DNA from: Microbacterium immunditiarum
Lineage (GTDB): Bacteria; Actinomycetota; Actinomycetes; Actinomycetales; Microbacteriaceae
Length of the DNA stretch: 64,000 nucleotides
NCBI RefSeq assembly: GCF_013409785.1
Contig: NZ_JACCBV010000001.1
Coordinates: 2,356,001 to 2,420,000 of the forward strand
Direction of reading: 5' to 3'
Shown here: piece by piece, positions 5,893 to 62,500 of the stretch
How positions within the stretch are numbered: the stretch's first letter is position 1
Layout: each line of letters opens with the position of its first letter
Notes under the pieces: model-generated
What the model was told of the DNA's origin: nothing
What the model saw: only the letters and a program-made list of their open reading frames with translations
The model's database searches: none
Program-made: the position numbers and the translations under genes

Positions 5893-7982
5893 CACGGCTC
5901 CTTCACGTGCAGGATGTGGACGGGCTCGACGAACGAGTCGAGCCGGACGTAGCTGTGGTCGGACCAGGTCCACCGGGCTCCGGTGAGCAGCTCGTCCACC
6001 TCGAAGGGCGATCCCGGCGCGACGCCCCACACGCGCGTGTCGACGTGCACCATCGTCTCGCGCACCGAGTGCGGGTCGACGTTGGCGACGACGATGATCG
6101 TGTCGGAGCTTCCGGTCGGGGAGAGGGCGGCGTCGAGGTGCTTCGCGTAGACGAGGATCGCGTCGTCGTCGCTCCAATGGATGGTGAGGTTGCGCAGCTG
6201 GCGCAGGGCCGGATGCTCCCGCCTGATCTCGTTGAGTCGCGTGAGGTACGGAGCGAGCGACGCCCCGCGCTCGATGGCATCATCCCAGTCGCGGAGCTTG
6301 TACTCGTACTTCTCGTTGTCGATGTTCTCTTCCGAGCCCGGTCGCGCGACGTTCTCGAACAGCTCGTACCCCGCGTACACGCCGTATGTCGGCGCGGCCG
6401 TCGCCGCGATCGCCGCGCGGACCTTGTAGGCCGGCCGGCCGCCGAACTGCAGGTACTCGGTGAGGATGTCGGGCGTGTTCACGAAGAGGTTCGGCCGCAG
6501 GAAGTCCGCCGTGTCGTTCGCGAGCCCGCCGAGGAACTCCTCGAGCTCGGTCTTCGTGTTGCGCCACGTGAAGTAGGTGTAACTCTGCTGGAAGCCGGCG
6601 GCGGCGAGCCCCTGCAGGGGTGCCGGGCGCGTGAACGCCTCAGCGAGGAACACGACGTCGGGGTGCTCCGCCTCGACCGTCGCGATCAGCCACTCCCAGA
6701 ACTGCAGGGGCTTGGTGTGCGGGTTGTCGACGCGGAAGATCTTGACGCCTTGCGCGATCCAGTGGCGCACGACCCGCAGCACCTCGGCACGGATGCCCTC
6801 CGGGTCGTTGTCGAAGTTGATCGGGTAGATGTCCTGGTACTTCTTCGGCGGGTTCTCGGCGTACGCGATGGTCCCGTCGGGCAGTGTCGTGAACCATTCC
6901 GGATGCTCCGTGACCCAAGGGTGGTCGGGAGAGGCCTGAAGCGCGAGGTCGAGAGCCACCTCGATTCCCTCGGCGCGCGCAGCGCGCACGAAGGCGCGGA
7001 AGTCGGCGAGGGTGCCGAGATCCGGATGCACCGCGTCGTGACCGCCGGTGGAGGCGCCGATCGCCCACGGCGACCCGGGATCGCCGGGCCGGGCCTCGAG
7101 CGTGTTGTTGCGGCCCTTGCGGTGGGTGACGCCGATCGGGTGGATGGGGGGCAGGTAGAGGACATCGAAACCCATCGCGGCGACGGCGGGCAGGCGCCGG
7201 GCCGCGGTGCGGAACGTGCCGGACTTGATGGTGCCGTTCTTGAGGCGGCGGGCGCCCTCGGAGCGTGGGAAGAACTCGTACCAGGCGCCGACGCCCGCCC
7301 GCTCGCGCTCGACGAGGAGCTCGCGTTCGAGGCCGGGCGACAGCAGCGACAGGAGCGGACTCGTTGCGAAGAAGGACGCGATGCGCGGGTCGTCGACGAT
7401 CTCGAGCGCGCGGGCGTCCGAGGTGTCGGGATGCCGCAGCTCGGTGGCCGCGGTCTCGAGCACGCGGCGCTCCGCCGCCGGTCGCGACCGCTCGGTGACG
7501 GCGCGGTCGAAGAGGCGCGCCCCGATCTCGCGCATGAGCGCCGTGTCGACCCCCGCGCCGATCTTCACGCGCGCGGCGTGCCGCCACGTCTCGACCTCGT
7601 CGGCGAACGCCTCGAACCGGAAGCGCCACACGCCCACCTCGAGGAGCCCGACGAGCGTCTGCCAGTGGTCGAGCCCGTTCTCGAGCGGGCGGAGCCGATG
7701 CAGCGACTCATCGCCTGACGGCGACCAAAGCCGCAGGTGCACGCCGATGCGGTCGTGCCCCTCGCGGAACGCCGTGACGCGGAACGGGACGACCTCGCCG
7801 GCGAAGGCCTTCGGTCGGAACAGCCCGCCGGGCACCGACGGCGAGGGCGCATGCGTCGGGATGCGGCCCGTGATGGTGCCGGTGCCGGGGGCGAGAGCGG
7901 ATGTCTCGACGCCGGTCCGGACCGGGACCGATGTCGCGCTTCGCCATGGTCGCGCGGTCGCTCGTCGGTTCGTCGTGGCCAC
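5892..7982 (-). CDS. glgE: alpha-1,4-glucan:maltose-1-phosphate maltosyltransferase GlgE
   Basis: 696 aa. GlgE (GH13_3) adds maltose from maltose-1-phosphate to the non-reducing end of alpha-glucan. After a divergent 35-residue leader comes the family opening GRIP..PSVPGG. The catalytic nucleophile is in FRVDNPHTKP (D419) and the general acid in VFLAEAF (E448). The GTG start at 7982 has no Shine-Dalgarno, but TAGGTT sits exactly 6 nt upstream, so a leaderless transcript starting at this GTG is likely. It lies between glgX and glgB, consistent with one glucan metabolism block. TreS and Pep2, which supply maltose-1-phosphate, are not in the window. Confidence 0.96.
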   Translation of the reverse strand: MATTNRRATARPWRSATSVPVRTGVETSALAPGTGTITGRIPTHAPSPSVPGGLFRPKAFAGEVVPFRVTAFREGHDRIGVHLRLWSPSGDESLHRLRPLENGLDHWQTLVGLLEVGVWRFRFEAFADEVETWRHAARVKIGAGVDTALMREIGARLFDRAVTERSRPAAERRVLETAATELRHPDTSDARALEIVDDPRIASFFATSPLLSLLSPGLERELLVERERAGVGAWYEFFPRSEGARRLKNGTIKSGTFRTAARRLPAVAAMGFDVLYLPPIHPIGVTHRKGRNNTLEARPGDPGSPWAIGASTGGHDAVHPDLGTLADFRAFVRAARAEGIEVALDLALQASPDHPWVTEHPEWFTTLPDGTIAYAENPPKKYQDIYPINFDNDPEGIRAEVLRVVRHWIAQGVKIFRVDNPHTKPLQFWEWLIATVEAEHPDVVFLAEAFTRPAPLQGLAAAGFQQSYTYFTWRNTKTELEEFLGGLANDTADFLRPNLFVNTPDILTEYLQFGGRPAYKVRAAIAATAAPTYGVYAGYELFENVARPGSEENIDNEKYEYKLRDWDDAIERGASLAPYLTRLNEIRREHPALRQLRNLTIHWSDDDAILVYAKHLDAALSPTGSSDTIIVVANVDPHSVRETMVHVDTRVWGVAPGSPFEVDELLTGARWTWSDHSYVRLDSFVEPVHILHVKEP

Positions 7983-7988
7983 GTCTCG

Positions 7989-7994
7989 AACCTA
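7989..7994 (-). promoter_or_regulatory. -10 element of glgE
   Basis: TAGGTT on the minus strand ends 6 nt before the glgE GTG, the spacing expected if transcription begins at the start codon. No -35 consensus is evident. Confidence 0.6.
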
Positions 7995-8048
7995 TCGCGA
8001 CGCCTCGGAGTCCGACAGCCGCGGCACCCGCCCGGCCGCGAGCCGGAG

Positions 8049-10133
8049 TCACTCGGCGCGGAAGAGCCTCATCGACGTGCCCGGCATCCCGATGACCGCA
8101 CCCGGGGCGATCTCCTCGCCCTCGCTGTCGGGTGCCTCGTCGGCGCTCGACCACAGCGACACGAACCGTGAGACGTCGTCGATGCGGGGGAGCGTCACGT
8201 CCATCGGCGTCTCGGTGCCGTGCACGACGAGCAGGATGCGGTTGAGCTCCTCGACCTCGGGCGTCGAGGTCGCGGCGTACTGCAGAGTGCGGTGGCTCGC
8301 GTCGGTCCAGCGCTCGATCGACATCGTCTCGCCACGCTCGTCGTACCACTCCATGACCGAGGCGGACGGCGTGTGCTCGCCGAGCCGCGCGAAGCGGATC
8401 GGCCGCAGGGCGGGGTTCGCGTGACGCAGCGCGATGAGCCGGCGCGCGTGCGCGAGGAGGTCGCGCTGCCACGGCGCGTGCTGCCAGTCGAGCCACGTGA
8501 GCGGCGAGTCCTGGCAGTACGCGTTGTTGTTGCCGCGCTGCGTGCGACCGAACTCGTCACCCGCGGTGATCATCGGCACGCCGGCCGACAGCAGCAGCGT
8601 GCCGAGCAGGTTGCGCATCGCCTTGCGCCGCACGGCGAGGATCCGCTCGTCGCTCGTCCGGCCCTCGGTTCCGTGGTTGAACGACCGGTTCGTGTCGGCG
8701 CCGTCACGATTGTGCTCGCCGTTGGCGATGTTGTGCTTGACGTCGTAGGACACGAGGTCGTGCAGCGTGAAGCCATCGTGCGCCGTGATGAAGTTGATCC
8801 CCGCGAGCGGTCCGCGCTGCTCGCTGAACGTGTTGGACGATCCCGCGAGGCGCGTCGCGAACCCTCCGACGCCGACCGGAGGCGTGCCTGCGCGGCGCGC
8901 GTAGTCGACGTCGCTCAGCCAGAAGTTGCGCACACGGTCGCGATAGCGGTCGTTCCACTCGTGCCAGCCCGAGCCGAAGTTGCCGGTCTGCCACCCGCCC
9001 AAGCCCACGTCCCACGGCTCCGCGATGAGCTTCGCGTCCTGCAGGGCGGGGTCGTCGACGATGGCGCGAAGAAGCGGATGCTCCGGCGTGAACTCGTGGT
9101 TCGCATCGCGCCCGAGGGTCGCCGCCAGGTCGAGCCGGAAGCCGTCGACCTGCACCTCGTTCGCCCAGTAGCGCATCGAGTCGAGGACGAGGCGGGCCGC
9201 GGCATCCGTCGCCGTGTTCAGGGAATTGCCGCATCCCGTCACGTCGATGTACGACGCATCCTCGTCCTGGCGGTAGTACGAACGGTTGTCGATGCCCCGC
9301 AGGCTCGAGCGCGGCCCGCCGATTCCCTCCTCCACGGTGTGGTTGTAGACGACGTCGAGGATGACCTCGAGCCCCGCCTCGTGCAGCTGTCGCACCATCT
9401 GCTTGAACTCGCGGAGGACGGCCTCCGGGCCGCCGCGGCGGCTCTCCTCGGTCGCGTACGGCGCGTGCGGGGTGAAGAAGTTCAGCGAGTTGTAGCCCCA
9501 GTAGTTCGTGAGGCCCAGGTTCAGCAGGCGGGGCTCGGAGACGAACGCGTGCACGGGCAGCAGCTCGACGCTCGTGACCCCGAGCGAGGTCAGGTGGTCG
9601 ATCATCGCGGGGTGGGCGAGGCCGGCATACGTGCCGTGGAGGGCGGGTGGGACATCCGGATGCGTCTTCGTGAGCCCCTTGATGTGACCTTCGTAGATCA
9701 CCGTGCGGTCCCACGGCACGCGCGGCTTGCCGACCCCGCCCCAGTCGAAGGATCCCTCGACGACGACCGAGCGCCAGTCTCCGTAGCCGCCGCTGGCGAG
9801 GCCGCGCGAGTAAGGCTCGACGAGCAGGGTTCTCGGGTTGAACATGTTCCCCGGCCCGTGGACTCCGTCGACGCGGATCGCGTAGATCGTTCCCGCCCGC
9901 AGGCGCGGACTCGTGACGCTCCACACATGGCCGTCGCCCCGCTCGAGCGGGATGACGTCCGTCGCCCAGTCGAGGTCGTCGCCGTCGAAGATCACGAGCT
10001 CGATCTCGGACGCCGCGCCCGACCACACTCGCAGGGTGCCGGCGTCGCCGTGCAGGGTGACTCCGAGCCCGTCGAGCCGGCGGTCGAGAAGTCCGGGGGG
10101 CGAGACGGCCGCGGCGGGCTCCGGGCGAATCAT
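8049..10133 (-). CDS. glgX: glycogen debranching enzyme GlgX
   Basis: 694 aa from the ATG at 10133. GlgX hydrolyses alpha-1,6 linkages of limit dextrins. The protein has an N-terminal CBM48-like domain, then a GH13_11 barrel with typical blocks: VILDVVYNHT, GFRLDLAATLGR (nucleophile Asp), LIAEPWDVG (general acid Glu) and ITAHDGFTLHDLVSY. The motif TAGDEFGRTQRGNNNAYCQD is the usual isoamylase/GlgX signature. A GTG 27 nt upstream is in frame, but the ATG has TACTGT 7 nt before it and fits a leaderless start better. Transcribed divergently from the cysteine desulfurase gene, 74 bp apart. Confidence 0.95.
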   Translation of the reverse strand: MIRPEPAAAVSPPGLLDRRLDGLGVTLHGDAGTLRVWSGAASEIELVIFDGDDLDWATDVIPLERGDGHVWSVTSPRLRAGTIYAIRVDGVHGPGNMFNPRTLLVEPYSRGLASGGYGDWRSVVVEGSFDWGGVGKPRVPWDRTVIYEGHIKGLTKTHPDVPPALHGTYAGLAHPAMIDHLTSLGVTSVELLPVHAFVSEPRLLNLGLTNYWGYNSLNFFTPHAPYATEESRRGGPEAVLREFKQMVRQLHEAGLEVILDVVYNHTVEEGIGGPRSSLRGIDNRSYYRQDEDASYIDVTGCGNSLNTATDAAARLVLDSMRYWANEVQVDGFRLDLAATLGRDANHEFTPEHPLLRAIVDDPALQDAKLIAEPWDVGLGGWQTGNFGSGWHEWNDRYRDRVRNFWLSDVDYARRAGTPPVGVGGFATRLAGSSNTFSEQRGPLAGINFITAHDGFTLHDLVSYDVKHNIANGEHNRDGADTNRSFNHGTEGRTSDERILAVRRKAMRNLLGTLLLSAGVPMITAGDEFGRTQRGNNNAYCQDSPLTWLDWQHAPWQRDLLAHARRLIALRHANPALRPIRFARLGEHTPSASVMEWYDERGETMSIERWTDASHRTLQYAATSTPEVEELNRILLVVHGTETPMDVTLPRIDDVSRFVSLWSSADEAPDSEGEEIAPGAVIGMPGTSMRLFRAE

Positions 10134-10140
10134 GCGCTCT

Positions 10141-10146
10141 ACAGTA
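10141..10146 (-). promoter_or_regulatory. -10 element of glgX
   Basis: TACTGT on the minus strand, 7 nt upstream of ATG 10133. It argues for that ATG over the in-frame GTG at 10160, which would lie upstream of the transcription start. Confidence 0.55.
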
Positions 10147-10207
10147 GTAACGCCGCGCACCTCAGGCGCGCGGCGAAGGACGGCGACAGCGGACGGGGGC
10201 AGGACTC

Positions 10208-11374
10208 GTGGTGTATCTCGATCACGCCGCGACGACGCCGCTTCGGCCCGAAGCGCGAGACGCGTGGGTGCGGGCCGCGGAGGAGCTCGGCAACGCGTCG
10301 TCGATCCACGGCCCGGGCCAGTCCGCGCGCCGGCTGCTCGAAGACGCGCGCGAGCGCCTCGCCGCCGTCGCCGGCTGCGACCCGATCGAGGTCGTGTTCA
10401 CGTCGGGCGGCACCGAGGCGTCGAACCTCGCGATCAAAGGGCTGTGGTGGGCGCGCGCCGACGATCGTGACGCGGTCGTCCTGCCGGACGGAGAGCACCA
10501 CGCGACGCTCGACGCGGTGGAGTGGCTCGCGTCGCACGAGGGGGCGGCCGTGCGCTCGGTGCCCCTGGACGCGGTGGGGCGAATCCCGGTGGGCGCTTTC
10601 GCCGAGGCCCTCCACGGGGCGGTCCTCGCGACAGCGCTCGTCGCGAACAACGAGATCGGCACGGTCAACGACGCGGCCGGGCTCGCCGCTGCCGCGGACG
10701 CGGCGGGTGTGCCGCTGCACCTGGACGCGGTCGCCGCGTTCGGTCACGTTCCCGTCGACTTCACGGGGTGGCGTGCGGATGCCGCGCCCGCCACGGGCCT
10801 CGTCGCGATGAGCCTGTCCGCGCACAAGATCGGCGGCCCCGTCGGCGTGGGCGCCCTGATCGTCTCGCGCACCGCGACGATCGCGCCGCTCGTGCACGGC
10901 GGCGGCCAGCAGCGGGCGCTCCGGGCGGGCACGCAGGACGTCGCGGGCGCGGTCGCGTTCGCGGTCGCGGCGGAGCTCGCCGAGGCGGAGCGCGACGCGG
11001 AGGCCGGGAGGCTCACCGCGCTGCGGGAGAGGCTGGTGGCCGGCATCCGATCTTCCGTTCTCGGCGCGGAGCTGCTCGGCGACCCGGCGGACCGCGTCCC
11101 GGGAAACGCGCACGTGCTGTTCCCGGGCGCGCGCGGCGAGACGCTGCTGTTCCTGCTCGACCAGGCGGGGGTCGCCGTCTCGACGGGGTCGGCGTGCCAG
11201 GCCGGCGTGCCCGAGCCGTCCCACGTCGTGCTCGCACTGGGGCGCAGCGCGGACGAGGCGCGCGAGGTGCTGCGGCTCACGCTGGGGCGCACGTCCACCG
11301 ATGCGGACGTCGACGCGCTGCTCGCAGCGCTGCCTTCCGCCGTGGAGCGGGCGCGCGCGGCATCCGCCCGCTGA
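10208..11374 (+). CDS. cysteine desulfurase (IscS/NifS family), sulfur donor for MnmA
   Basis: 388 aa. This PLP enzyme converts cysteine to alanine and a protein-bound persulfide. It opens with VYLDHAATTPL. The PLP-binding lysine lies in SAHKIGG and the persulfide-carrying cysteine in STGSACQAG. Its length and this class-I loop match IscS/NifS. It lies 46 bp upstream of mnmA, so its likely job is sulfur supply for tRNA 2-thiouridine; a wider Fe-S role is possible. The GTG at 10208 is preceded by AGGA with a 5-nt spacer. Confidence 0.95.
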   Translation: MVYLDHAATTPLRPEARDAWVRAAEELGNASSIHGPGQSARRLLEDARERLAAVAGCDPIEVVFTSGGTEASNLAIKGLWWARADDRDAVVLPDGEHHATLDAVEWLASHEGAAVRSVPLDAVGRIPVGAFAEALHGAVLATALVANNEIGTVNDAAGLAAAADAAGVPLHLDAVAAFGHVPVDFTGWRADAAPATGLVAMSLSAHKIGGPVGVGALIVSRTATIAPLVHGGGQQRALRAGTQDVAGAVAFAVAAELAEAERDAEAGRLTALRERLVAGIRSSVLGAELLGDPADRVPGNAHVLFPGARGETLLFLLDQAGVAVSTGSACQAGVPEPSHVVLALGRSADEAREVLRLTLGRTSTDADVDALLAALPSAVERARAASAR

Positions 11375-11408
11375 GCTCGCTTTCCGGCTGGGGTCCAGGT
11401 GGCGCTCG

Positions 11409-11414
11409 TAGACT
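11409..11414 (+). promoter_or_regulatory. -10 element of mnmA
   Basis: TAGACT, then six bases, then ATG 11421: leaderless geometry. This gives mnmA its own promoter inside the desulfurase-mnmA pair. Confidence 0.6.
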
Positions 11415-11420
11415 TGACGG

Positions 11421-12518: not shown

Positions 12519-12555
12519 GCCGCGCAAGCCCCGTGGCGCTGTCCGAGGGCACTCC

Positions 12556-14901
<2,346 letters not shown>

Positions 14902-16927: not shown

Positions 16928-16933
16928 AGACTA
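16928..16933 (-). promoter_or_regulatory. -10 element of the acyl-CoA ligase gene
   Basis: TAGTCT on the minus strand with a 6-nt spacer to GTG 16921. It lies 33 bp from the gatC -10 element on the opposite strand. Confidence 0.6.
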
Positions 16934-16966
16934 CGCCCGCGGGAAAAGCGCTGTCGGAGCGCGACC

Positions 16967-16972
16967 TAGAAT
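16967..16972 (+). promoter_or_regulatory. -10 element of gatC
   Basis: TAGAAT, close to the TATAAT consensus, 6 nt before the gatC GTG. It probably drives the whole gatCAB operon. Confidence 0.65.
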
Positions 16973-21668: not shown

Positions 21669-21674
21669 TACCGT
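21669..21674 (+). promoter_or_regulatory. -10 element of the GerW/YtfJ-like gene
   Basis: TACCGT plus GGGGAC (6 nt) before ATG 21681. The GGGGA could also act as a weak SD. Confidence 0.45.
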
Positions 21675-24556: not shown

Positions 24557-24562
24557 ATCCTA
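24557..24562 (-). promoter_or_regulatory. -10 element of orn
   Basis: TAGGAT on the minus strand, 7 nt upstream of ATG 24549. It overlaps the alternative ATG at 24558, which makes that start unlikely. Confidence 0.55.
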
Positions 24563-24631
24563 GTGAGGACAGCGGACGCGGCCCGTTGGGCGGGTACTCG
24601 CGACGCGCCGAGACGGATGCTGCGCGTGTTG

Positions 24632-25717: not shown

Positions 25718-25723
25718 TAACGT
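25718..25723 (+). promoter_or_regulatory. -10 element of mocR
   Basis: TAACGT, 6 nt before GTG 25730 (leaderless geometry). It starts 6 bp past the end of the inverted repeat, so a bound regulator would cover the promoter. Confidence 0.55.
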
Positions 25724-28301: not shown

Positions 28302-28307
28302 TAGACT
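28302..28307 (+). promoter_or_regulatory. -10 element of the lipoprotein gene
   Basis: TAGACT followed by CATCGG (6 nt) and GTG 28314; leaderless geometry, no SD. Confidence 0.6.
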
Positions 28308-32333: not shown

Positions 32334-32340
32334 TAGTTTA
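32334..32340. promoter_or_regulatory. overlapping divergent -10 elements
   Basis: TAGTTTA reads TAGTTT on the plus strand (6 nt before ATG 32346) and TAAACT on the minus strand (upstream of tesB). The two RNA polymerases could not both occupy this site. Confidence 0.5.
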
Positions 32341-36334: not shown

Positions 36335-36340
36335 ATCTTA
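36335..36340 (-). promoter_or_regulatory. -10 element of the MscS-type channel gene
   Basis: TAAGAT on the minus strand, 7 nt before ATG 36327. It lies just downstream of the pepN terminator hairpin. Confidence 0.55.
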
Positions 36341-42867: not shown

Positions 42868-42873
42868 TAGGAT
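42868..42873 (+). promoter_or_regulatory. -10 element of rpiB
   Basis: TAGGAT with a 7-nt spacer to ATG 42881. The spacer TGAGGTC contains GAGG, which may also serve as an SD. Confidence 0.5.
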
Positions 42874-44446: not shown

Positions 44447-45274
44447 TCACAGATCGTCGACGGGCGCCGGCCCGTCGATCCACGACCACTCGGTGTCGCG
44501 CATGAACCACGCGCCCCATGTCTTCTCGGCCGCGGCGACGTCGACGCCATAGTGCTCGAGCACGCCGTGCACAAGATCGTCGACGCGCTCCACGGTCGGA
44601 TCGTCGTAGAGCGCCGAGATGTCGTCGAGCAGCCCGACGGGCCGGTTCGGGGCATCCGCTGTGACCCGCAGCAGCCACTTGTGGAAGGGGAAGAGCATCG
44701 CGTTCTCGTTCAGCACGATGCGGCACGCGAACAGCACCGCGCGGTTCAGCGAGATGCCGCGCAGGTAGGGGTTCTGCTTCTCCCACCCCTGCTCGTGGTA
44801 CCAGCGCCACGCGAGCGCCTGCGACACGAACCGCTCGCGCCGCTGCGCTTGTTCCTCGACCGGGAAGCGCACGACCCCCGTGAGCGTCTCGTCGAGGCCG
44901 GGCGCGCGCGAGAACAGCACGCGCGCGTCCTGGTAGCCCCACCGCGTCGCGTCGTCCCCGCGCGCGGCGACGTCCTCGAGGAAGCGCCGCGAGACGTACT
45001 TGCCGTCGACGTACCCGCCTTCGTAGGTGCTGAGGTCGTGGCTGACGAAGCCGGTGTCGGGCACGGCGAGCCGACGCTCGAACTCGTCGTGCGGCACGAC
45101 GATCACGATGTCGACATCGGATGCCTCGGTGCCGAAGCCGTGCGCGAGCGAGCCGGTGAGCAGCAGAGCCTCGACGTCGGGCTGGGCGGAGAAGTGCGCA
45201 AAGACGCGCTCGACGGTCTCGAGCTGGTGCGGCCAGATGCGCACGTCGTCGAGCGGGGGGAGGGCAATGGTCAC
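44447..45274 (-). CDS. nucleotidyltransferase domain protein
   Basis: 275 aa. The N-terminal nucleotidyltransferase fold has the helix and metal motif LLTGSLAHGFGTEASDVDIVIVV (GS, then DxD at about 50). A helical C-terminal region (about 140-260) resembles the substrate-binding half of DUF4037-like or antibiotic-adenylyltransferase-like proteins. The target is unknown; no antitoxin partner sits next to it, so a toxin role is not suggested. GTG 45274 has TAGCGT 8 nt upstream on the minus strand. Confidence 0.75.
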   Translation of the reverse strand: MTIALPPLDDVRIWPHQLETVERVFAHFSAQPDVEALLLTGSLAHGFGTEASDVDIVIVVPHDEFERRLAVPDTGFVSHDLSTYEGGYVDGKYVSRRFLEDVAARGDDATRWGYQDARVLFSRAPGLDETLTGVVRFPVEEQAQRRERFVSQALAWRWYHEQGWEKQNPYLRGISLNRAVLFACRIVLNENAMLFPFHKWLLRVTADAPNRPVGLLDDISALYDDPTVERVDDLVHGVLEHYGVDVAAAEKTWGAWFMRDTEWSWIDGPAPVDDL

Positions 45275-45335: not shown

Positions 45336-45341
45336 TAGGCT
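45336..45341 (+). promoter_or_regulatory. -10 element of the PaiB-like gene
   Basis: TAGGCT followed by GGTGAC (6 nt) and GTG 45348; leaderless geometry. Confidence 0.55.
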
Positions 45342-51952: not shown

Positions 51953-51958
51953 TAACGT
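51953..51958 (+). promoter_or_regulatory. -10 element of the acyltransferase gene
   Basis: TAACGT plus CGAGGG (6 nt) before GTG 51965. The GAGGG may act as an SD if the leader is not exactly zero. Confidence 0.5.
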
Positions 51959-51964
51959 CGAGGG

Positions 51965-54103
51965 GTGCCATCCGCCGATCACGATCTCGGACCGCAGCAC
52001 CTCGAAGACCCCGCGCGGGTCGTGCTGCGGCAGCCGACCGACCGTTCGCCTGAGCACGCCGAGCCGTCGCGGTTCATCCCGCACGTGCAGGGGCTCCGCG
52101 CGATCGCGGTCATGTGCGTCGTGCTGTACCACTTCTGGCCGGGGCGGTTCCCGGGCGGGTACGTCGGCGTCGACATCTTCTTCGTGATCTCGGGCTTCCT
52201 CATCACATCGCACCTCATGCGCGAGCTCACGGCGACCGGCACCGTGAAGCTCTCCCAGTTCTGGGCGCGCCGTGCGCGACGCCTGCTGCCGGCGTCGCTG
52301 CTCGTGCTGCTGTTCTGCGCGATCGTGGCCGGCTCTGCGTACCTCATGCCGACCTCGGCCCTGCCGAACGAGGTGCGGGAGATCATCGCGTCGACGTTCT
52401 ACGTCGAGAACTGGTACCTCGCGCTGAACTCCGCGGACTACCTCAACCACTCGGGTGATCCGACGACGGTGCAGCACTACTGGTCGCTGTCGCTCGAGGA
52501 GCAGTTCTACGTCATGTGGCCGCTCATCATGCTGCTGGCGGCGTGGATCGGCCTGAAGTGGTTCCACGGCGCCCGGCGGCGCGCTGTCATCGCGGCGCTC
52601 GCGATCGTCTCGGCGGTGTCGTTCGTGTTCTGCGTGTGGTTCACGCTCACGAACCCGGCACCCGCGTACTTCGTGACCTTCGGCCGCATGTGGCAGTTCG
52701 GCGTCGGCGCCCTCGTGGCGCTCATCCCGATGCTGCGCATCCGCAACGCGCTCGGCAGCTTCGTGCTCGGGTGGGCGGGTGTCGCCGCCATCGTCTTCAC
52801 GCTCTTCCGGTTCGACGGCCAGACGCCGTTCCCCGGCTACGCTGCGGCGCTGCCGACCCTCGGTGCCGCGGCGATCATCGCCGCCTCGAACTCGGAGCGC
52901 TGGTGGTACCCGACGCGCGTCCTCTCGCTGCGCCCCGCGCAGTTCGTCGGCGACATCTCCTACTCGCTCTATCTGTGGCACTGGCCGCTCATCATCATCG
53001 CGCCGTCGGTGCCGTTCTGGGGCCTCACGATCTACCACCGGCTCGCGCTGCTCGCCCTGTGCTTCGTGCTCGCGTGGCTGACGAAGCGATTCGTCGAAGA
53101 CCCCGTGCGCGGGTGGAAGGTGCTCACCACGCGGCCCGCACGCGTGACCCTGTGGTCGGCGCTCGTCGCGATGCTCGTGGTCGGCGGCGCCGCGGGGACC
53201 GCGTGGGCCGTCAACGCCCCCGCGTACAACGAGGGCGTTCGCGCGCTGCAGGAGCTCCGCGAGAACCCGCCCGAGTGCTTCGGCGCCGCCCTCGAGCTCG
53301 ATCCCGGGTGCGAGGGCGTGGACTTCGGCGACACGATCCTGCCGGCACCCGGTTTCGCGGGAGTCGACCGACCGTCAGACGAGCAGTGCTTCGTGCAGCT
53401 CAACGACGCGCGTCCGGTGTCGTGCGAGTTCGGCTCAGACGACGCGGATGCCCCGACCGTCGCGCTCATCGGAGACAGCCACGCCTTCCAGCTGCTGTCG
53501 ACGTTCCAGCGCATGGCCGACGAGAACGGCTGGCGGCTCGTGACGTACTTCAAGGGCGCATGCCCGTGGAACACGACGCCGCTCTCGACACCCGGCGCGT
53601 TCGGGCAGGCGTGCACCCAGTGGCGCGACGCCGTGCGCGCCCAGCTCGCCGACCGCGACCTCGACGCGGTGTTCACCGCCGCGATCGCCACGACGCCGTA
53701 CTCGTCTGCCGGGTTCGACTCGGCGCACGACGCCGCGGTCGCCGGTTACCGCGAGGCGTGGGGAGAGGTGCTCGACCGCGGCATCCCTGTCGTCACGGTC
53801 ATCGACAACCCTGTGTGGGAGACCGACCCGAACAAGTGCCTGCGCACGCGCGACGCGTCCGAGTGCGACGGACCGCGCTCGGCGCTTCTCGTCGACGACG
53901 ATCCGCTGAGGGCGGCCGCGACGGATGTCGAGGGCGTCACGCTGCTCGACTTCACGGACGTGTTCTGCGGCGCGGACGTGTGCAGCCCCGTCGTGGGGGG
54001 CGCGAACGTGTATCGCGACCAGGACCACCTCACGGTGACCTTCGCCGACACCCTCGCTCCCTGGTACACCGAGGCGATCGAAGGCGCGCTCGCACGCGAA
54101 TAG
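51965..54103 (+). CDS. OafA/YrhL-type acyltransferase with C-terminal SGNH domain
   Basis: 712 aa. The N-terminal acyltransferase-3 domain (about 35-400) has ten to eleven membrane segments; its opening FIPHVQGLRAIAVMCVVLYHF holds the catalytic His, and the block VGVDIFFVISGFLIT follows. A soluble SGNH domain (about 430-712) has the Ser motif ALIGDSHAFQ and the Asp-His pair in DQDHLT. Such proteins O-acylate cell-wall or surface polysaccharides. GTG 51965 is leaderless by geometry. The gamma carbonic anhydrase gene begins 10 nt later. Confidence 0.9.
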   Translation: MPSADHDLGPQHLEDPARVVLRQPTDRSPEHAEPSRFIPHVQGLRAIAVMCVVLYHFWPGRFPGGYVGVDIFFVISGFLITSHLMRELTATGTVKLSQFWARRARRLLPASLLVLLFCAIVAGSAYLMPTSALPNEVREIIASTFYVENWYLALNSADYLNHSGDPTTVQHYWSLSLEEQFYVMWPLIMLLAAWIGLKWFHGARRRAVIAALAIVSAVSFVFCVWFTLTNPAPAYFVTFGRMWQFGVGALVALIPMLRIRNALGSFVLGWAGVAAIVFTLFRFDGQTPFPGYAAALPTLGAAAIIAASNSERWWYPTRVLSLRPAQFVGDISYSLYLWHWPLIIIAPSVPFWGLTIYHRLALLALCFVLAWLTKRFVEDPVRGWKVLTTRPARVTLWSALVAMLVVGGAAGTAWAVNAPAYNEGVRALQELRENPPECFGAALELDPGCEGVDFGDTILPAPGFAGVDRPSDEQCFVQLNDARPVSCEFGSDDADAPTVALIGDSHAFQLLSTFQRMADENGWRLVTYFKGACPWNTTPLSTPGAFGQACTQWRDAVRAQLADRDLDAVFTAAIATTPYSSAGFDSAHDAAVAGYREAWGEVLDRGIPVVTVIDNPVWETDPNKCLRTRDASECDGPRSALLVDDDPLRAAATDVEGVTLLDFTDVFCGADVCSPVVGGANVYRDQDHLTVTFADTLAPWYTEAIEGALARE

Positions 54104-54106
54104 GCT
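54101..54106 (+). promoter_or_regulatory. -10 element of the gamma carbonic anhydrase gene
   Basis: TAGGCT, 6 nt before ATG 54113. Its first three bases are the stop codon of the acyltransferase gene, so promoter and terminator codon share bases. Confidence 0.5.
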
Positions 54107-55484: not shown

Positions 55485-55490
55485 ACCCTA
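55485..55490 (-). promoter_or_regulatory. -10 element of the membrane protein gene
   Basis: TAGGGT on the minus strand followed by CGGCTC (6 nt) and ATG 55478. A separate promoter fits the terminator that follows tRNA-Gly upstream. Confidence 0.55.
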
Positions 55491-56330: not shown

Positions 56331-56401
56331 CGTCACGGCCCCCGAGACCCAGACTTCAGCCGCCGCGCTGTGCGCGGACCACACGAGGAGAACGAACAGG
56401 C

Positions 56402-57856
56402 ATGGTCACGAGCACCGTTGAGAAGCTCAGCCCGACGCGGGTGAAGCTCCGCATCACGGTCACCCCCGAAGAGCTCAAGCCGAGCATCGCGCACGCGTAC
56501 GAGCACATCGCGCAGGACGTGCAGATCCCCGGCTTCCGCAAGGGCAAGGTGCCCGCCCCGATCATCGACCAGCGCATCGGCCGTGCCGCCGTTCTCGAGC
56601 ACGCCGTGAGCGAGGGCCTCGACACCTTCTACCGTGACGCGGTCGCCGAGCAGGGCGTGCGCGTGCTCGGCCGTCCCAGCGCCGATATCGTCGAGTGGCC
56701 CAACGAGAAGGACTTCTCGGGCGACCTGCTCGTCGACGTCGAGGTCGACGTCCGTCCTGAGTTCGAGCTTCCCGAGCTCGAGGGCACGACCATCGAGGTC
56801 GAGGCCGCCGAGGTCGACGAGGCCGCGATCGACGAGGAGCTCGACCGCCTGCGTGCGCGCTTCGGCACGCTCGTCACGGTCGACCGCCCGGCGAGCACGG
56901 GTGACTTCGTCGAGCTCGATCTCGTCGCGACGATCGACGGCGGCGAGATCGACCGCGCCGACGGCGTGTCGTACGAGGTCGGCTCGGGTGAGCTGCTCGA
57001 GGGCATCGACGAGGCCGTCGAGTCGCTCACCGCCGGCGAGGAGACGACCTTCCGCTCGAAGCTCATCGGCGGCGACCACGCCGGCGAAGAGGCCGAGGTC
57101 TCGGTGACGGTGAAGAGCGTGAAGGAGCGTGAGCTTCCCGAGGCCGACGACGACTTCGCCCAGATCGCGAGCGAATTCGACACGATCGCCGAGCTGCGCG
57201 AGAGCCTCAAGGAGCGCGTCGGACAGCAGTCCGCGTTCACGCAGGGCTCGCAGGCTCGCGACAAGCTCGTCGAGCGCCTGCTCGAAGAGGTCGACATCCC
57301 GGTTCCGGCGCAGCTCGTCGAGGACGAGGTGCACAACCACCTGGAGTCCGAAGGCCGTCTCGAAGACGACGTGCACCGCGCCGAGGTGACCGAGGCGAGC
57401 GAGAAGCAGTTCAAGACGCAGATGCTGCTCGACGCGGTCGCCGAGAAGTTCAACGTCCAGGTCTCGCAAGACGAGCTCACCCAGTACCTGGTCCAGTCGT
57501 CCGCGCAGTACGGCATGTCCCCGCAGGACTTCGTCAACGCCCTCCAGGAGAACAACCAGCTGCCCGCGATCGTCGGCGAGGTCGCGCGCAACAAGGCCCT
57601 CGCGGTCGCACTCGGCAAGGTCACCGTGGTCGACACGAACGGCGCCGCGGTCGACCTGACCGGCTTCGTCGCCACCGAAGACGAGGCCGAGGCCGAGGAA
57701 GAGGTCGTCGAAGAGGCCCAGGAGAGCGCGGATGCTGCGGCCGAGGCCGACGCCGTGATCGAGGCCGAAGAGGCCGCCGCCGAAGAGAAGCCGGCGAAGA
57801 AGGCCCCGGTGAAGAAGGCTCCCGCCAAGAAGAAGGCGGCCGCCGACAAGGAGTGA
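56402..57856 (+). CDS. tig: trigger factor Tig
   Basis: 484 aa. This ribosome-bound chaperone and peptidyl-prolyl isomerase has the ribosome-binding signature in [12 protein letters not shown] (about 41-52), then the FKBP-like PPIase domain (about 150-240) and a helical C-terminal substrate domain. The last 60 residues are an Ala/Glu-rich segment ending in a Lys/Ala/Pro tail ([13 protein letters not shown]), common in actinobacterial Tig. ATG 56402 follows GAGGAG at a rather long distance and ACAGG closer. It precedes the clpP-clpX cluster as in many bacteria. Confidence 0.96.
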
Positions 57857-57871
57857 TCGCCGCACGGCGAT
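57856..57871 (+). repeat. small hairpin at the tig stop codon
   Basis: ATCGCC-GCAC-GGCGAT, a 6-bp stem that begins with the last base of the tig stop codon. It could work with the larger terminator immediately downstream. Confidence 0.4.
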
Positions 57872-57878
57872 GTGACCG

Positions 57879-57908
57879 GGGGGACGGGTGCTGCGGCATC
57901 CGTCCCCC
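57879..57908 (+). terminator. terminator hairpin after tig
   Basis: GGGGGACGG (57879-57887) pairs with CCGTCCCCC (57900-57908) around a 12-nt loop. The downstream sequence TGTCGTCTTTCG is T-rich. It separates tig from the TPR-protein gene. Confidence 0.6.
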
Positions 57909-57932
57909 TGTCGTCTTTCGAGAGGAATGACG

Positions 57933-58424
57933 ATGATCGACGACTGGGATGAGCGGATCGCGGCGGTGTGGGCGGATGAGACCGCGTCCGACGAGGAGGT
58001 CATCGCGCGGATCGACGCACTGGCGTCCGAGCGGCCTGACGACGATGCCCGCGCCCTGTTCGAGCGGGCAGGCTCCCGCGACTCGGCGGGGCTCGAGGCG
58101 GAGGCCGAGCCGCTGTACCGCGCAGCGCTCGAGGCGGGGCTCGACGACGAGCATCGCCCGCAGGCCGCGATCCAGCTCGCGAGCACCCTGCGCAACCTCG
58201 ACAGGACGGACGAGGCGATCCGGATGCTCCGCGCCGAGCTCGATCGCGAGCCGCCGTCCCCACTCCGGGACGAGGCCGCCGCGTTCCTCGCGCTGGCGCT
58301 CGTCTCGGCCGGGCACGAGCGGGAGGGGGCATCCGTCGCGCTTCGCGCACTCGCTCCGCACCTGTCCCGATACCGGCGATCGGTCCTCGCGTACGTCGAC
58401 GAGATCGACACCGGCGTGCGCTGA
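57933..58424 (+). CDS. tetratricopeptide repeat protein
   Basis: 163 aa, all helical, with two to three TPR-like units (EAEPLYRAALEAGLDDEHRPQAAIQLASTLRNLDRTDEAI). It is acidic at the N-terminus (MIDDWDERIAAVWADET). Homologous small TPR proteins are common in actinobacteria, with unnamed partners. ATG 57933 is preferred to the ATG 6 nt upstream because GAGG is 7 nt from it. It sits between tig and clpP1, so a role in protein quality control is possible but not shown. Confidence 0.8.
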   Translation: MIDDWDERIAAVWADETASDEEVIARIDALASERPDDDARALFERAGSRDSAGLEAEAEPLYRAALEAGLDDEHRPQAAIQLASTLRNLDRTDEAIRMLRAELDREPPSPLRDEAAAFLALALVSAGHEREGASVALRALAPHLSRYRRSVLAYVDEIDTGVR

Positions 58425-58467
58425 TCTGCCCAGGGCGAACACGGGCGGGTCGCACGCGAGCCGCCGG

Positions 58468-58473
58468 TAGATT
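58468..58473 (+). promoter_or_regulatory. -10 element of clpP1
   Basis: TAGATT, 29 nt before ATG 58503, which has its own SD; a leadered transcript, in contrast to the leaderless genes. GCGAAC (half of a ClgR-type site) occurs 30 bp upstream without a clear partner. Confidence 0.45.
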
Positions 58474-58502
58474 CGATGCCACGAACGGAATCAGGAGCAC
58501 AC

Positions 58503-59090
58503 ATGGCCGCTGAACCCCTTGTCGCGACGAGCGTCTTCGACAGGCTGCTGAAGGACCGCATCATCTGGCTCGGATCAGAGGTGCGCGACGACAACGCGAA
58601 CGAGATCTGCGCGAAGATCCTCCTCCTCGCGGCCGAGGACTCGCAGAAGGACATCTACCTCTACATCAACTCGCCCGGTGGCTCGATCACGGCCGGCATG
58701 GCGATCTACGACACGATGCAGTTCGTCCCGAACGACATCGTGACCGTCGGAATCGGCATGGCCGCGTCGATGGGCCAGCTGCTGCTCACGAGCGGCACGA
58801 AGGGCAAGCGCTACATCACCCCGAACGCGCGCGTGCTGCTGCACCAGCCGCACGGCGGCTTCGGCGGGACCGCGAGCGACATCCAGACGCAGGCGCAGCT
58901 CATCCTCGACATGAAGCGTCGCCTCGCCGAGATCACCGCCGCTCAGACAGGAAAGACGGTCGAGCAGATCAACGCCGACGGAGACCGCGACCGATGGTTC
59001 TCCGCCGAGGAGGCGCTCGAGTACGGCTTCGTCGACCACATCCGCGAGCACGCGGTGGACGTGTCCGGCGGCGGCGGAACCGCGAACTGA
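58503..59090 (+). CDS. clpP1: ATP-dependent Clp protease proteolytic subunit ClpP1
   Basis: 195 aa. The serine protease triad has Ser89 (GMAASMG) and His114 (LLHQPHGG), with the Asp in the DRDRWF region. Actinobacteria have two ClpP subunits that form a mixed tetradecamer. ATG 58503 follows CAGGAG with 7 nt. A TAGATT hexamer at 58468-58473 is a good -10 element, giving a leader of about 25 nt. The clpP2 gene follows after 30 nt. Confidence 0.95.
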
Positions 59091-59120
59091 CGGCACCGAG
59101 GGCGAAAGAGAGACATCGCA

Positions 59121-59792
59121 ATGCACACCCCCACCTTCGGCGCCGGCCTTCCGCAGGGCCTCCAGGTCCCGAACAGTCGGTACATCCTGCCGCAGTTCGA
59201 GGAGCGCACCGCCTACGGCTACAAGCGTCAGGACCCGTACAACAAGCTGTTCGAGGACCGCGTCATCTTCCTCGGCGTCCAGGTCGACGACGCGTCGGCC
59301 GACGACGTCATGGCGCAGCTGCTCGTGCTCGAGTCGCAGGACCCCGACCGCGACATCATCATGTACATCAACTCGCCGGGCGGCTCGTTCACGGCGATGA
59401 CGGCGATCTACGACACGATGCAGTACATCGCGCCGCAGATCCAGACCGTCGTCCTCGGTCAGGCCGCGTCAGCGGCGGCCGTGCTGCTCGCGGCCGGTAC
59501 GCCGGGCAAGCGACTCGCGCTGCCGAACTCGCGCATCCTCATCCACCAGCCCGCGATGGGCGAGGCGGGCCACGGCCAGGCCTCCGACATCGAAATCCAG
59601 GCTGCTGAGATCATGCGCATGCGCACGTGGCTCGAGGAGACGCTGTCGAAGCACTCGAACCGCTCGCCCGAGCAGGTCAACAAGGACATCGACCGCGACA
59701 AGATCCTCTCCGCCGAGGAGGCCGTCGACTACGGCCTCGTCGACCAGGTGCTCTCGTCGCGCAAGCGGGCCCAGCCCGCGCTCACGAAGTAG
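59121..59792 (+). CDS. clpP2: ATP-dependent Clp protease proteolytic subunit ClpP2
   Basis: 223 aa. It has an N-terminal extension relative to ClpP1 (about 20 residues). Ser117 is in GQAASAAA and His142 in ILIHQPAMG, with Asp in DRDKI. The two subunits differ in the handle helix (EAGHGQASDIEIQ), as expected for ClpP1/ClpP2 pairs. ATG 59121 follows AAGAGAG. An intrinsic terminator lies 27 bp past the stop. Confidence 0.95.
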   Translation: MHTPTFGAGLPQGLQVPNSRYILPQFEERTAYGYKRQDPYNKLFEDRVIFLGVQVDDASADDVMAQLLVLESQDPDRDIIMYINSPGGSFTAMTAIYDTMQYIAPQIQTVVLGQAASAAAVLLAAGTPGKRLALPNSRILIHQPAMGEAGHGQASDIEIQAAEIMRMRTWLEETLSKHSNRSPEQVNKDIDRDKILSAEEAVDYGLVDQVLSSRKRAQPALTK

Positions 59793-59818
59793 GCGAAGCC
59801 TCAGCGGATGCTCCGCCC

Positions 59819-59859
59819 GCGCCCCGTCGCCCGGAAGGGTGGCGGGGCGCTCGTTTTCG
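59819..59859 (+). terminator. intrinsic terminator of clpP1-clpP2
   Basis: GCGCCCCG (59819-59826) and CGGGGCGC (59843-59850) form the stem, with a loop that can pair further, followed by TCGTTTTCG. This is the only clear stem-plus-T-tract terminator in the window. Confidence 0.75.
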
Positions 59860-59890
59860 TCCTGGTGATCCACCGTGCGGCAGACGTTCC

Positions 59891-59918
59891 GCTCTGAGCG
59901 GACGGAGCCGCTCAGAGC
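59891..59918. repeat. perfect inverted repeat between clpP2 and clpX
   Basis: GCTCTGAGCGG (59891-59901) and CCGCTCAGAGC (59908-59918) are perfect 11-bp arms around ACGGAG. It lies 99 bp upstream of clpX and downstream of the clpP2 terminator, so it may be an operator for clpX or a second terminator. It carries no T tract. Confidence 0.5.
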
Positions 59919-60017
59919 ATCCGGATTCCGCGTCGCAATCCATCCGCTTGTCGCCGTCACCCGTTAGGCTCGAACACGTGCACGGGAAAGCACACGCCGG
60001 CCACGAGGAGGAGCCTG

Positions 60018-61286
60018 ATGGCACGCATCGGTGAGAGCGCCGACCTGTTCAAGTGCTCCTTCTGCGGCAAGAGCCAGAAGCAGGTGCAGCAGCTCATCGC
60101 AGGACCCGGTGTCTACATCTGCGACGAGTGCGTCGAACTGTGCAACGAGATCATCGAAGAGCGCATGGCCGAGTCGGGCCAGGGCGCGGTCGCGGACTTC
60201 GACCTTCCCAAGCCGCGCGAGATCTACTCCTTCCTCGAGGAGTACGTCGTCGGGCAGGACGACGCGAAGCGCGCCCTGTCGGTCGCGGTCTACAACCACT
60301 ACAAGCGCATCCGCGCGCACGGAACGCTTCAGCCGGCGGAGCAGCGCGCCGACGAGGTCGAGATCGCGAAGAGCAACATCCTGCTCATCGGCCCGACCGG
60401 GTGCGGAAAGACCTACCTCGCGCAGACGCTCGCGAAGCGGCTCAACGTGCCGTTCGCGGTCGCCGACGCGACGGCGCTGACCGAGGCAGGCTACGTCGGC
60501 GAGGACGTCGAGAACATCCTGCTGAAGCTCATCCAGGCGGCCGACTTCGACACGAAGCGCGCCGAGACCGGGATCATCTACATCGACGAGGTCGACAAGA
60601 TCGCTCGCAAAGCCGAGAACCCCTCGATCACGCGCGACGTCTCGGGCGAGGGCGTGCAGCAGGCGCTGCTGAAGATCCTCGAGGGCACGGTCGCCTCGGT
60701 GCCGCCGCAGGGCGGACGCAAGCACCCGCACCAGGAGTTCATCCAGATCGACACGACGAACGTGCTGTTCATCGTTGCCGGTGCGTTCGCGGGTCTCGAA
60801 GACATCATCTCGTCGCGCGTCGGCAAGCACGGCATCGGCTTCGGGGCCGAGCTGCACAACAAGGGCGAAGACCTCAACCTCTACAGCGAGGTGCGGCCGG
60901 AGGACCTGCACAAGTTCGGCCTGATCCCCGAGTTCATCGGCCGGCTTCCGGTCGTGGCATCCGTATCGCCGCTCGACCGCCACGCGCTCATGGAGATCCT
61001 GACCGAGCCGAAGAACGCGCTCGTCAAGCAGTACCAGCGCATGTTCGAGCTCGACGGCGTGTCGCTGGAGTTCGAGACCGAGGCGCTCGAGGCGATCGCC
61101 GACCTCGCGGTCGAGCGCAAGACGGGGGCGCGCGGACTGCGCGCGATCCTCGAAGACGTGCTCGGCCCGATCATGTTCGAGATCCCGTCGACCGACGATG
61201 TCGACAAGGTCGTCATCACACGGGCCTCAGTCGAGCAGGGCGCCGCGCCCACCCTCGTGGTGCGCCAGGCGCGCAAGAGCGCCTGA
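60018..61286 (+). CDS. clpX: ATP-dependent Clp protease ATPase subunit ClpX
   Basis: 422 aa. This hexameric AAA+ unfoldase feeds ClpP. The N-terminal zinc-binding domain has C13, C16, C35 and C38 (CSFCGKSQ...CDECVELC). The Walker A motif is GPTGCGKT (about 127) and Walker [11 protein letters not shown]. The ClpP-binding loop is IGFGAE, and the sensor region FIGRLPVV follows. ATG 60018 follows GAGGAGG. TAGGCT at 59965 could be the -10 element. It lacks a coupled clpP start, so it is transcribed separately from clpP1P2. Confidence 0.97.
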
Positions 61287-61339
61287 CACCCGCGGAGCGG
61301 TCCGTCAGGCGGCCCGCCGACGATGTCGGTGACACTCCA

Positions 61340-61345
61340 TAGTGT
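61340..61345 (+). promoter_or_regulatory. -10 element of the epoxide hydrolase gene
   Basis: TAGTGT followed by CGACGG (6 nt) and ATG 61352; leaderless geometry, no SD. Confidence 0.55.
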
Positions 61346-61351
61346 CGACGG

Positions 61352-62500
61352 ATGCAGACACCGCAGCCGTTCCGCATCGCCGTCCCCGACCGGGTCCTCG
61401 ACGACCTGCACGACCGTCTCTCGCGGTTCCGTCCGCTGCCCGACTCACCGCGCCGCAAGCCGGCCGGTATGAACTCCGAGTACCTGGCCGAGCTCGTCAG
61501 CTCGTGGGCCACGTTCGACTGGCGGGCACGCGAGGAGTGGCTCAACCGGCATCCGCAGTTCCTCGTCGACATCGGCGACTCGACGATCCATTTCGCGCAT
61601 CTCAGGTCGGAGCGAGACGACTCGCCCGCGCTGCTCGTGATGCACGGGTGGCCGCACACCTTCGCGCTGCAGCTCGACTTCGCGGATCTGCTGCCCGATT
61701 TCCACGTGGTCGTGCCGAGCTTTCCCGGATTCGCGTTCTCTTCGCCTTACCGCGACGGACCCATCACCGAGACGAGACTCGCCGACACGATGCACGCCCT
61801 CATGACCGACGTGCTCGGCTACGACCGCTACCTCACCTACGGCGAGGACGTCTCCGCGAACGTGAACGACCTCATCGCGGCGACCCATCCCGAAGCGGTG
61901 CAGGGGATCATCGTCACCCACTCGCACTTCCCGTCACGCGAAGAGCGCGCGGCGCTCGCGGCACCCGACGAGCAGGCCTTCTTCGCGCGCCTCGACGCGG
62001 CCCACGGCACGGACGGCGCGTATGGGCACGTGCAGGCGACGCGCCCCGACACGCTCGCCGCCGCGCTCAACGACTCGCCCGCGGGATTGCTCGCGTGGCT
62101 GACGGAGAAGCTCGTGGAGTGGAGCGACACCCCGACCGAGCGGCCCGCCGAGGTCGAGCGGCGCATCTCACGAGAGCGAATCCTGACCGAGGCGATGATC
62201 TACTGGGTGACCCGGAGCATCGGCACGTCGTTCCGCCCGTACTACGAGGGCGCCGACCAGCCCGACGCGATGCCGTCCGTCGAGGTGCCGGCGACGGTGC
62301 ACATCCAGCGCCACGAGGGCGATTACCCGGAATCTCTCGCGCGGAGGTACTACCGCGACCTGCGGACGTTCGAGCGGCTGGCGGAGGGTGGGCACTTCGT
62401 CGTCGCCGAGGTTCCCGACGTGATGGCCGATCGAACGAGGGCGTTCGCCGTGGAGCTCGGACTGCTCGCGGATGCGGGTGCCGCCGCGGCGCGACGCTGA
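61352..62500 (+). CDS. epoxide hydrolase (alpha/beta hydrolase with N-terminal EHN domain)
   Basis: 382 aa. The EHN domain (about 1-95) begins QPFRIAVPDRVLDDLHDRLSRF and wraps the alpha/beta-hydrolase core. HGWP (about 96) provides the oxyanion hole. The expected nucleophile motif is YGEDVSANV (Asp), slightly different from the usual GGDWG; the catalytic His is in EGGHFVVAE near the C-terminus. Substrate unknown. ATG 61352 is leaderless by geometry. Convergent with the ABC ATPase gene, 7 bp apart. Confidence 0.85.
   Translation: MQTPQPFRIAVPDRVLDDLHDRLSRFRPLPDSPRRKPAGMNSEYLAELVSSWATFDWRAREEWLNRHPQFLVDIGDSTIHFAHLRSERDDSPALLVMHGWPHTFALQLDFADLLPDFHVVVPSFPGFAFSSPYRDGPITETRLADTMHALMTDVLGYDRYLTYGEDVSANVNDLIAATHPEAVQGIIVTHSHFPSREERAALAAPDEQAFFARLDAAHGTDGAYGHVQATRPDTLAAALNDSPAGLLAWLTEKLVEWSDTPTERPAEVERRISRERILTEAMIYWVTRSIGTSFRPYYEGADQPDAMPSVEVPATVHIQRHEGDYPESLARRYYRDLRTFERLAEGGHFVVAEVPDVMADRTRAFAVELGLLADAGAAAARR

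Follow-up and report, generated by a model that had tools for sequence, protein, structure and literature searches.

A probable leaderless-promoter geometry in the window and across the chromosome

At 18 genes in a 64,000-nucleotide stretch of the Microbacterium immunditiarum chromosome (bases 2356001-2420000 of the single-contig, 3.907-Mb genome, G+C ~70%; hereafter the window), an earlier note on this DNA reported a TANNNT hexamer ending exactly 6 or 7 nucleotides (nt) before an ATG or GTG start codon. The question raised by this locus is whether the hexamers are -10 elements that place the first transcribed base on the start codon itself. We consider it very likely that the 18 genes have their own housekeeping-sigma promoters giving leaderless mRNAs; a subset with an upstream GTC box is probably damage-inducible. 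By this account, each gene would have a -10 TANNNT (mostly TAGNNT) ending 6-7 bases before the start, RNA polymerase would begin with the first base of ATG or GTG, and the ribosome would read the leaderless mRNA from its 5' end without Shine–Dalgarno (SD) pairing; the subset would add, at a fixed distance, a box like that of RecA-independent damage promoters (RecA-NDp) and their activator PafBC, by which DNA damage would switch these genes on.

A plain scan of the window for TANNNT, five to eight nucleotides and ATG or GTG (RTG) returned 26 sites, 23 of them with six or seven intervening nucleotides (N6 or N7). All 18 reported sites are among these 23 and, as reported, 13 of them read TAGNNT, which confirms the original observation; the other five (15342, 21007, 48373, 55717, and 59978) coincide with no gene start among our own gene calls, which were made with a 3-periodic Markov model trained on long open reading frames (ORFs). 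By these calls, 18 of the 52 complete genes in the window have the geometry (binomial probability near 3e-21 at the control rate of 12/928). The start is the longest-ORF start, or the coding-score start picked without the motif, at 16 of the 18 genes; the exceptions are orn (24549), three codons off a motif-blind start, and the MscS gene (36327), two codons off. Most of the gene names in the earlier note agree with our Pfam scans, by which proteins were named in the window and among the box genes described below; "glgX, glgE" was given out of coordinate order, the gene at 7982 having GlgE domains and that at 10133 being GlgX-like.

For a wider view, the window was combined with 60 chromosome-spread 20-kb stretches (1,260,867 bases with overlap trimmed, 32% of the chromosome; coding fraction 0.86, 928 complete genes). 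The geometry, defined as TANNNT, then N6 or N7, then RTG (hexamer first base at -12 or -13), occurs at 184 of the 928 genes (19.8%) when any nearby in-frame RTG is accepted as the start, vs. 6-29 genes for ten other spacing pairs; after background, roughly 17-19% of genes have the strict geometry, from which degenerate -10s are excluded. The sharp peak at -12 that the earlier note had proposed as a test beyond the window is thus present. It also appears at starts chosen without reference to the motif: TANNNT lies at -12 and -13 in 71/928 and 21/928 coding-score starts, and in 97/928 and 12/928 longest-ORF starts, vs. only 0-9 times at other offsets. Among 3363 candidate RTG starts the counts are 126 at -12 and 59 at -13, and TANNNT occurs at ~0.17% per fixed offset between 16 and 30 (mean 5.7/3363), in keeping with the claimed chance rate of below 1%. 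There is no peak at TTG candidates (0/232 at -12, 2/232 at -13), CTG candidates (3/2188 and 4/2188), internal in-frame RTGs (3/14971 and 5/14971), or out-of-frame RTGs (0-2 of about 3900). When 60 arrangements of T, A, and T in six positions were compared, TA...T ranked first among the best 12 listed (185 vs. 11.5 expected; runner-up 80 vs. 37). The third hexamer base is G in 108/184 leaderless promoters, vs. 444/1419 among all TANNNT.

Promoter signature and Shine–Dalgarno pairing

Two bases past the hexamer (hexamer+7), G is present in 61% of N6 and 71% of N7 promoters, and C in 3-4% (n = 184). The spacing of this G is constant relative to the hexamer and not to the start codon, which is the behavior expected of a sigma-70-type promoter; sigma region 1.2 favors a discriminator G, with which the hexamer-locked G agrees. 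In N7 promoters, C precedes the start codon in 74% and a purine in 16%, so that the start codon offers the first suitably spaced purine. Mapped starts of Mycobacterium tuberculosis likewise favor a purine at +1 and C at -1, according to the part of that study available to us (PMC3898074).

SD pairing at the 18 window starts is weak, from 0.6 to -5.9 kcal/mol (strongest at orn, the acyltransferase gene, and gatC), and none reaches our threshold of -6 kcal/mol or below, consistent with the reported lack of a usable SD. That threshold is reached by 4% of the 184 genes, compared with 11% of the internal RTG controls (n = 398) and 57% of the overlapping genes in operons (n = 159); by the alternative measure, a 4-base SD core, 12/184 leaderless genes have one. 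The 16S 3' end carries a normal anti-SD. Together, the hexamer-locked G, the C before the predicted +1, the lack of a TTG or CTG peak, and the weak SD pairing fit leaderless transcription, and we infer that transcription begins at the start codon, that translation is leaderless, and that the principal sigma factor is used.

The earlier note also held that the two initiation modes are neatly split, with SDs or stop/start overlaps inside operons. This is only partly right. The geometry is absent from the 159 sampled genes whose same-strand gap is at most 3 nt (88 of the 184 leaderless genes have a same-strand upstream neighbor), but many other genes form a third class that lacks both TANNNT at -12/-13 and an SD: just 26-37% of the other non-leaderless classes have SD pairing at -6 kcal/mol or below, and 125/196 divergent non-leaderless genes lack a 4-base SD core. 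This class may include genes with mis-called starts, with degenerate -10s, and with SD-less leaders. Degenerate -10s with one mismatch are in some excess at 12 and 13 before non-leaderless genes (for example, CA...T 48 times at -13 vs. a mean of 17), and were left uncounted because the background shifts with offset.

Conservation in relatives

Orthologues of the 51965 acyltransferase in named Microbacterium records reach 84% identity, and the geometry is present, always in frame, at 63 of the 71 properly placed loci (L080, L101, L104, L139, and L141 left out), 62 at -12 and one at -13. It is also found ahead of orn in 26/30 and ligA in 17/30 genomes, our own included. Of the relatives, 25 have the geometry at orn; their start falls 3-9 bases internal to 24549, and none uses the longer start, which favors 24549 over 24558. 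Across 119 genomes of the phylum, TANNNT-N6-ATG exceeds the reversed control in many (291 vs. 102 in our genome). The leaderless geometry also provides a start-codon placement rule for this high-GC group.

A GTC box ahead of a subset of predicted leaderless genes

In 25 of the 184 leaderless promoters (~14%), where about 3 would be expected, GTC stands exactly at -15 relative to the -10 hexamer, vs. 0-8 times at the other listed hexamer-aligned positions; the box consensus is about tGTCsG(a/c)g-N8-TANNNT. In the whole genome, GTCSG-N10-TANNNT-RTG with a spacing of N6 and of N7 gives 29 sites each (4 and 3 in reversed controls, respectively). These 58 sites define the box genes, in which box, -10, and start codon stand at fixed spacing; ligA, orn, and the epoxide hydrolase gene are those in the window, and gatC, its box one base out of register, was uncounted. 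The idea that all PafBC-like boxes are leaderless, prompted by genome-wide counts in which 58 of 94 box-plus-(-10) sites are leaderless (49 sites in reversed controls), was rejected: in an offset control the box at -15 is enriched at both leaderless (21 vs. a mean of 1.1) and non-leaderless hexamers (14 vs. 5.8). Box-bearing promoters are thus mostly, and not exclusively, leaderless.

Proteins of repair, recombination, or replication account for 19 of the 58 box genes vs. 0/35 among other leaderless genes (a random draw of 20 out of 144, plus 15 in the window; Fisher p 3.8e-5), as classed by the author and not blind. They are NucS, LigA, two AlkZ-like proteins, RarA (MgsA), RuvA, SRAP, a LigD primase-polymerase, two Exo_endo_phos proteins (exonuclease III-like by eye), RecQ, Tag, SbcD, RecG, UvrA, DnaE, two polymerase III clamp-loader subunits, and an RNase_T exonuclease (DnaQ-like by eye). 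Without the broad Exo_endo_phos (L179, L203) and RNase_T (L197) matches the count is 16/58 (Fisher p 3.4e-4). Orn (L195), HNH (L193), GIY-YIG-like (L151), YqaJ (L185), and TrwC (L144) proteins were counted as non-repair. Pfam scans covered 57 box genes (L188, of 27 amino acids, was left out; L144, L180, L191, and L204 are cut by the locus end), and the 38 others scanned are functionally diverse, eight having no Pfam match. UvrB and DnaX have GTC at -15 but no GTCSG, and hence fall outside the 58.

The box extends to relatives. GTC at -15 is present in 15/17 leaderless ligA promoters (14/16 without our genome) and 15/26 leaderless orn promoters (14/25). In 60 genomes of the family, ours included, GTCGGTG-N8-TANNNT occurs 608 times vs. 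92 in controls and GTCGGAG-N8-TANNNT 294 vs. 55; the T form is ahead in 49 genomes and the A form in 7, with 4 ties. Our genome is the most A-leaning (14 GTCGGAG vs. 5 GTCGGTG), followed closely by one other. The leaderless box pattern (N6) occurs 7, 12, and 20 times in three other genomes of the order (1 in each control) and 13-21 times in six of the class (1-11 in controls); it is near control level in many of the 119 phylum genomes, 18 of which have none. The damage-response subset is probably conserved.

The box may be bound by PafBC, making the subset damage-induced: the genome encodes pafB and pafC as adjacent WYL proteins beside tatC, matching the PafBC structure PDB 6sj9 (3.5e-34 and 5e-37), and the register, the N8 spacing, and the repair-gene set agree with RecA-NDp, as does the family-wide excess of GTCGGTG-N8-TANNNT. 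The full TGTCRGTG consensus is not shared by the subset, there being one exact site at N8 (61352) and 10 one-mismatch sites in the 1.26-Mb sample; the subset would therefore work like RecA-NDp without strict membership, except at 61352. This scarcity of exact sites, together with the preference of our genome for GTCGGAG, the 38 of 57 scanned box genes outside the repair class, and the six WYL-domain matches in the genome, by which other WYL regulators exist, would also suit a site for another activator, or a short element that resembles a -35 and serves an alternative sigma factor; given the agreement with RecA-NDp and the presence of pafBC, we regard this as unlikely, although it is the strongest of the alternatives considered here.

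A broader, tentative proposal, at a little under even odds, is that most of the LexA-independent damage regulon of Microbacteriaceae is controlled by a single leaderless module of rigid spacing, PafBC-type box-N8-TANNNT-N6-7-start. Signals for activator, polymerase, and ribosome would then lie within about 32 bp, the box would have drifted here to GTCGGAG or GTCCGA, and damage-induced repair mRNAs would be translated by the leaderless route. The subset would tie a PafBC-type damage response to leaderless initiation; were this so, many repair proteins would be translated independently of an SD, and the regulon would be readable straight from sequence.

Alternatives to a transcription start on the start codon

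The hexamer could be a real -10 with transcription starting 1-5 nt off the codon, which would give very short leaders, or loss of the first base and use of a nearby start. The coexistence of N6 and N7 spacings and the few 4-base SD cores would be compatible with this, and individual starts are predicted ones. Against it, TTG and CTG candidates have no peak, and this null, combined with the prevalence of C over purines before N7 starts, points to a +1 on the A or G of the start codon; we consider such offset starts improbable. That the hexamer instead acts in translation, as a ribosome-recognized signal and not a promoter, would explain its fixed distance from start codons and is very improbable, since the downstream G holds register to the hexamer and not the start, the motif is a -10 consensus, and the upstream GTC box is in register with the hexamer.

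Several points nonetheless weigh against leaderless promoters as a general account of the 184 genes. No -35 element was found among them (TTGAC at a spacer of 18 in 3/184), which leaves promoter strength unexplained. Only 92/184 leaderless starts are the coding-score start and 108/184 the longest-ORF start of our home-made finder, and some of the 184 (about 6-29) are chance occurrences. The geometry is not universal across orthologues: the eight acyltransferase loci without it lie outside Microbacterium (six in Agreia, one in Terrimesophilobacter, and one in an unplaced actinobacterial genome), and it is lacking at orn in 4/30 and at ligA in 13/30 genomes. In part of the phylum, TANNNT-N6-ATG is little or not above the reversed control, and the genomes without clear excess notably include many with several hundred matches. 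Lastly, the 5' ends are predictions. The leaderless-promoter reading is nevertheless supported by the genome-wide peak, the hexamer-locked G, and the weak SD pairing, with the transcription start deduced from sequence.

Individual sites and neighboring features

The sites in the window, with further predicted leaderless genes having GTC at -15, are given in Table 1.

Table 1. Predicted -10 hexamers and GTC boxes in the window, and predicted leaderless repair and replication genes with GTC at -15 elsewhere in the genome (locus:coordinates).
Feature	Position	Strand	Spacing and gene
-10 TAGGTT	7989..7994	-	N6 before GTG 7982, GlgE-domain gene
-10 TACTGT	10141..10146	-	N7 before ATG 10133, CBM48/amylase, GlgX-like; coding-score start also 10133
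-10 TAGACT	11409..11414	+	N6 before ATG 11421, MnmA
RecA-NDp/PafBC-like box TGTCCGAG	12540..12547	+	N8 before ligA -10
-10 TAGACT	12556..12561	+	N6 before GTG 12568, LigA
-10 TAGTCT	16928..16933	-	N6 before GTG 16921, AMP-binding ligase
Box TGTCGGAG	16952-16959		N7 before gatC -10, one base off usual spacing
-10 TAGAAT	16967..16972	+	N6 before GTG 16979, GatC; divergent from 16921
-10 TACCGT	21669..21674	+	N6 before ATG 21681, 106 amino acids, no Pfam match (earlier note: GerW-like)
-10 TAGGAT	24557..24562	-	N7 before ATG 24549, RNase_T family, orn; overlaps longer-ORF start 24558
PafBC-like box CGTCCGCT	24571..24578	-	N8 before orn -10
-10 TAACGT	25718..25723	+	N6 before GTG 25730, MocR-type GntR-aminotransferase
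-10 TAGACT	28302..28307	+	N6 before GTG 28314, DUF6993 (earlier note: lipoprotein)
-10 TAGTTT	32334..32339	+	N6 before ATG 32346, 224 amino acids, no Pfam match
-10 TAAGAT	36335..36340	-	N7 before ATG 36327, MscS channel
-10 TAGGAT	42868..42873	+	N7 before ATG 42881, RpiB
-10 TAGGCT	45336..45341	+	N6 before GTG 45348, FMN_bind_2, PaiB-like
-10 TAACGT	51953..51958	+	N6 before GTG 51965, acyltransferase-3/SGNH; conserved in Microbacterium relatives
-10 TAGGCT	54101..54106	+	N6 before ATG 54113, hexapeptide protein (earlier note: gamma carbonic anhydrase)
-10 TAGGGT	55485..55490	-	N6 before ATG 55478, 150 amino acids, no Pfam match
Exact RecA-NDp core TGTCGGTG	61324..61331	+	N8 before 61352 -10
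-10 TAGTGT	61340..61345	+	N6 before ATG 61352, epoxide hydrolase
uvrB	L042:5598-7679		Predicted leaderless, GTC at -15
uvrA	L042:10421-13330		Predicted leaderless, GTC at -15
recG	L041:13805-15967		Predicted leaderless, GTC at -15
dnaE	L048:15930-19448		Predicted leaderless, GTC at -15
nucS	L016:16215-16910		Predicted leaderless, GTC at -15

The acyl-CoA ligase gene (16921) and gatC stand back to back, 57 bases apart, with the two divergent leaderless promoters between them. The -10 of the 54113 gene takes its TAG from the stop codon that ends the acyltransferase gene upstream; in the sample, a stop codon is shared with the -10 at 7 of the 88 leaderless genes that have a same-strand upstream neighbor. 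An NTP_transf_2 gene (44447-45274, - strand), which faces the PaiB-like gene, has TAGCGT at the looser spacing of N8 before its coding-score GTG.

At clpX (60018), a strong SD (GAGGAGGAG) is present, and a TAGGCT -10 lies ~50 nt upstream (window 59965-60034). GTG 59978, N7 after this -10, opens an 18-codon frame overlapping the clpX start, possibly a leaderless short upstream ORF, or chance. Across the sample, TANNNT-N6/7-RTG precedes uncalled intergenic ORFs 25 (N6) and 30 (N7) times vs. 7-20 at other spacings, an approximately twofold excess that may reflect genes missed by our finder or small leaderless proteins, many of the frames being gene-length. A claim of short leaderless upstream ORFs was dropped because many of these frames are long enough to be missed genes.

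Comparison with known systems

The core finding is the actinobacterial leaderless mode, which is already known. Zheng et al. (2011; PMC3160421), in the sections available to us, describe TA-led genes of Actinobacteria, predicted to be leaderless, with the first T of TANNNT ~12 bp before the start; these comprise >20% of genes, and operon-distal genes usually need an SD. The genes described here are the same in kind, with the core at -12/-13, no usable SD, and none among overlapping operon genes, and our strict count of 184/928, taken before the 6-29 chance genes are subtracted and with degenerate -10s uncounted, stands beside that figure; the leaning of the third hexamer base to G is, set against those TA-led genes, a feature of our own genome. 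The TANNNT -10s, purine +1, C at -1, and use of both ATG and GTG are also like M. tuberculosis in the available part of Cortes et al. (2013; PMC3898074), with the difference that starts were mapped there and are predicted here. For Rv1955, a mycobacterial example of RecA-NDp, the accessible portion of PMC2897130 has translation beginning downstream of the mapped transcription start.

By titles and abstract openings, no mapping of leaderless genes in Microbacteriaceae was found in the open-access literature, nor, in such records as were visible, anything on PafBC in Microbacterium; no motif words were found in PMC11804915. The tie predicted from sequence between a PafBC-type box and leaderless starts in Microbacteriaceae may thus be new. 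As far as the sections seen describe it, the mycobacterial RecA-NDp is tTGTCRgtg-8 nt-TannnT (PMC5656591), a promoter type since attributed to the activator PafBC and also reported outside mycobacteria (PMC8223512, PMC5087735). The subset resembles this system in its box-to--10 register, its DNA-repair gene set, and the presence of pafBC in the genome (PMC5656591, PMC8223512, in the same sections); unlike RecA-NDp, the box here usually departs from TGTCRGTG (e.g., GTCGGAG, GTCCGA), and the start codon is mostly locked to the module.

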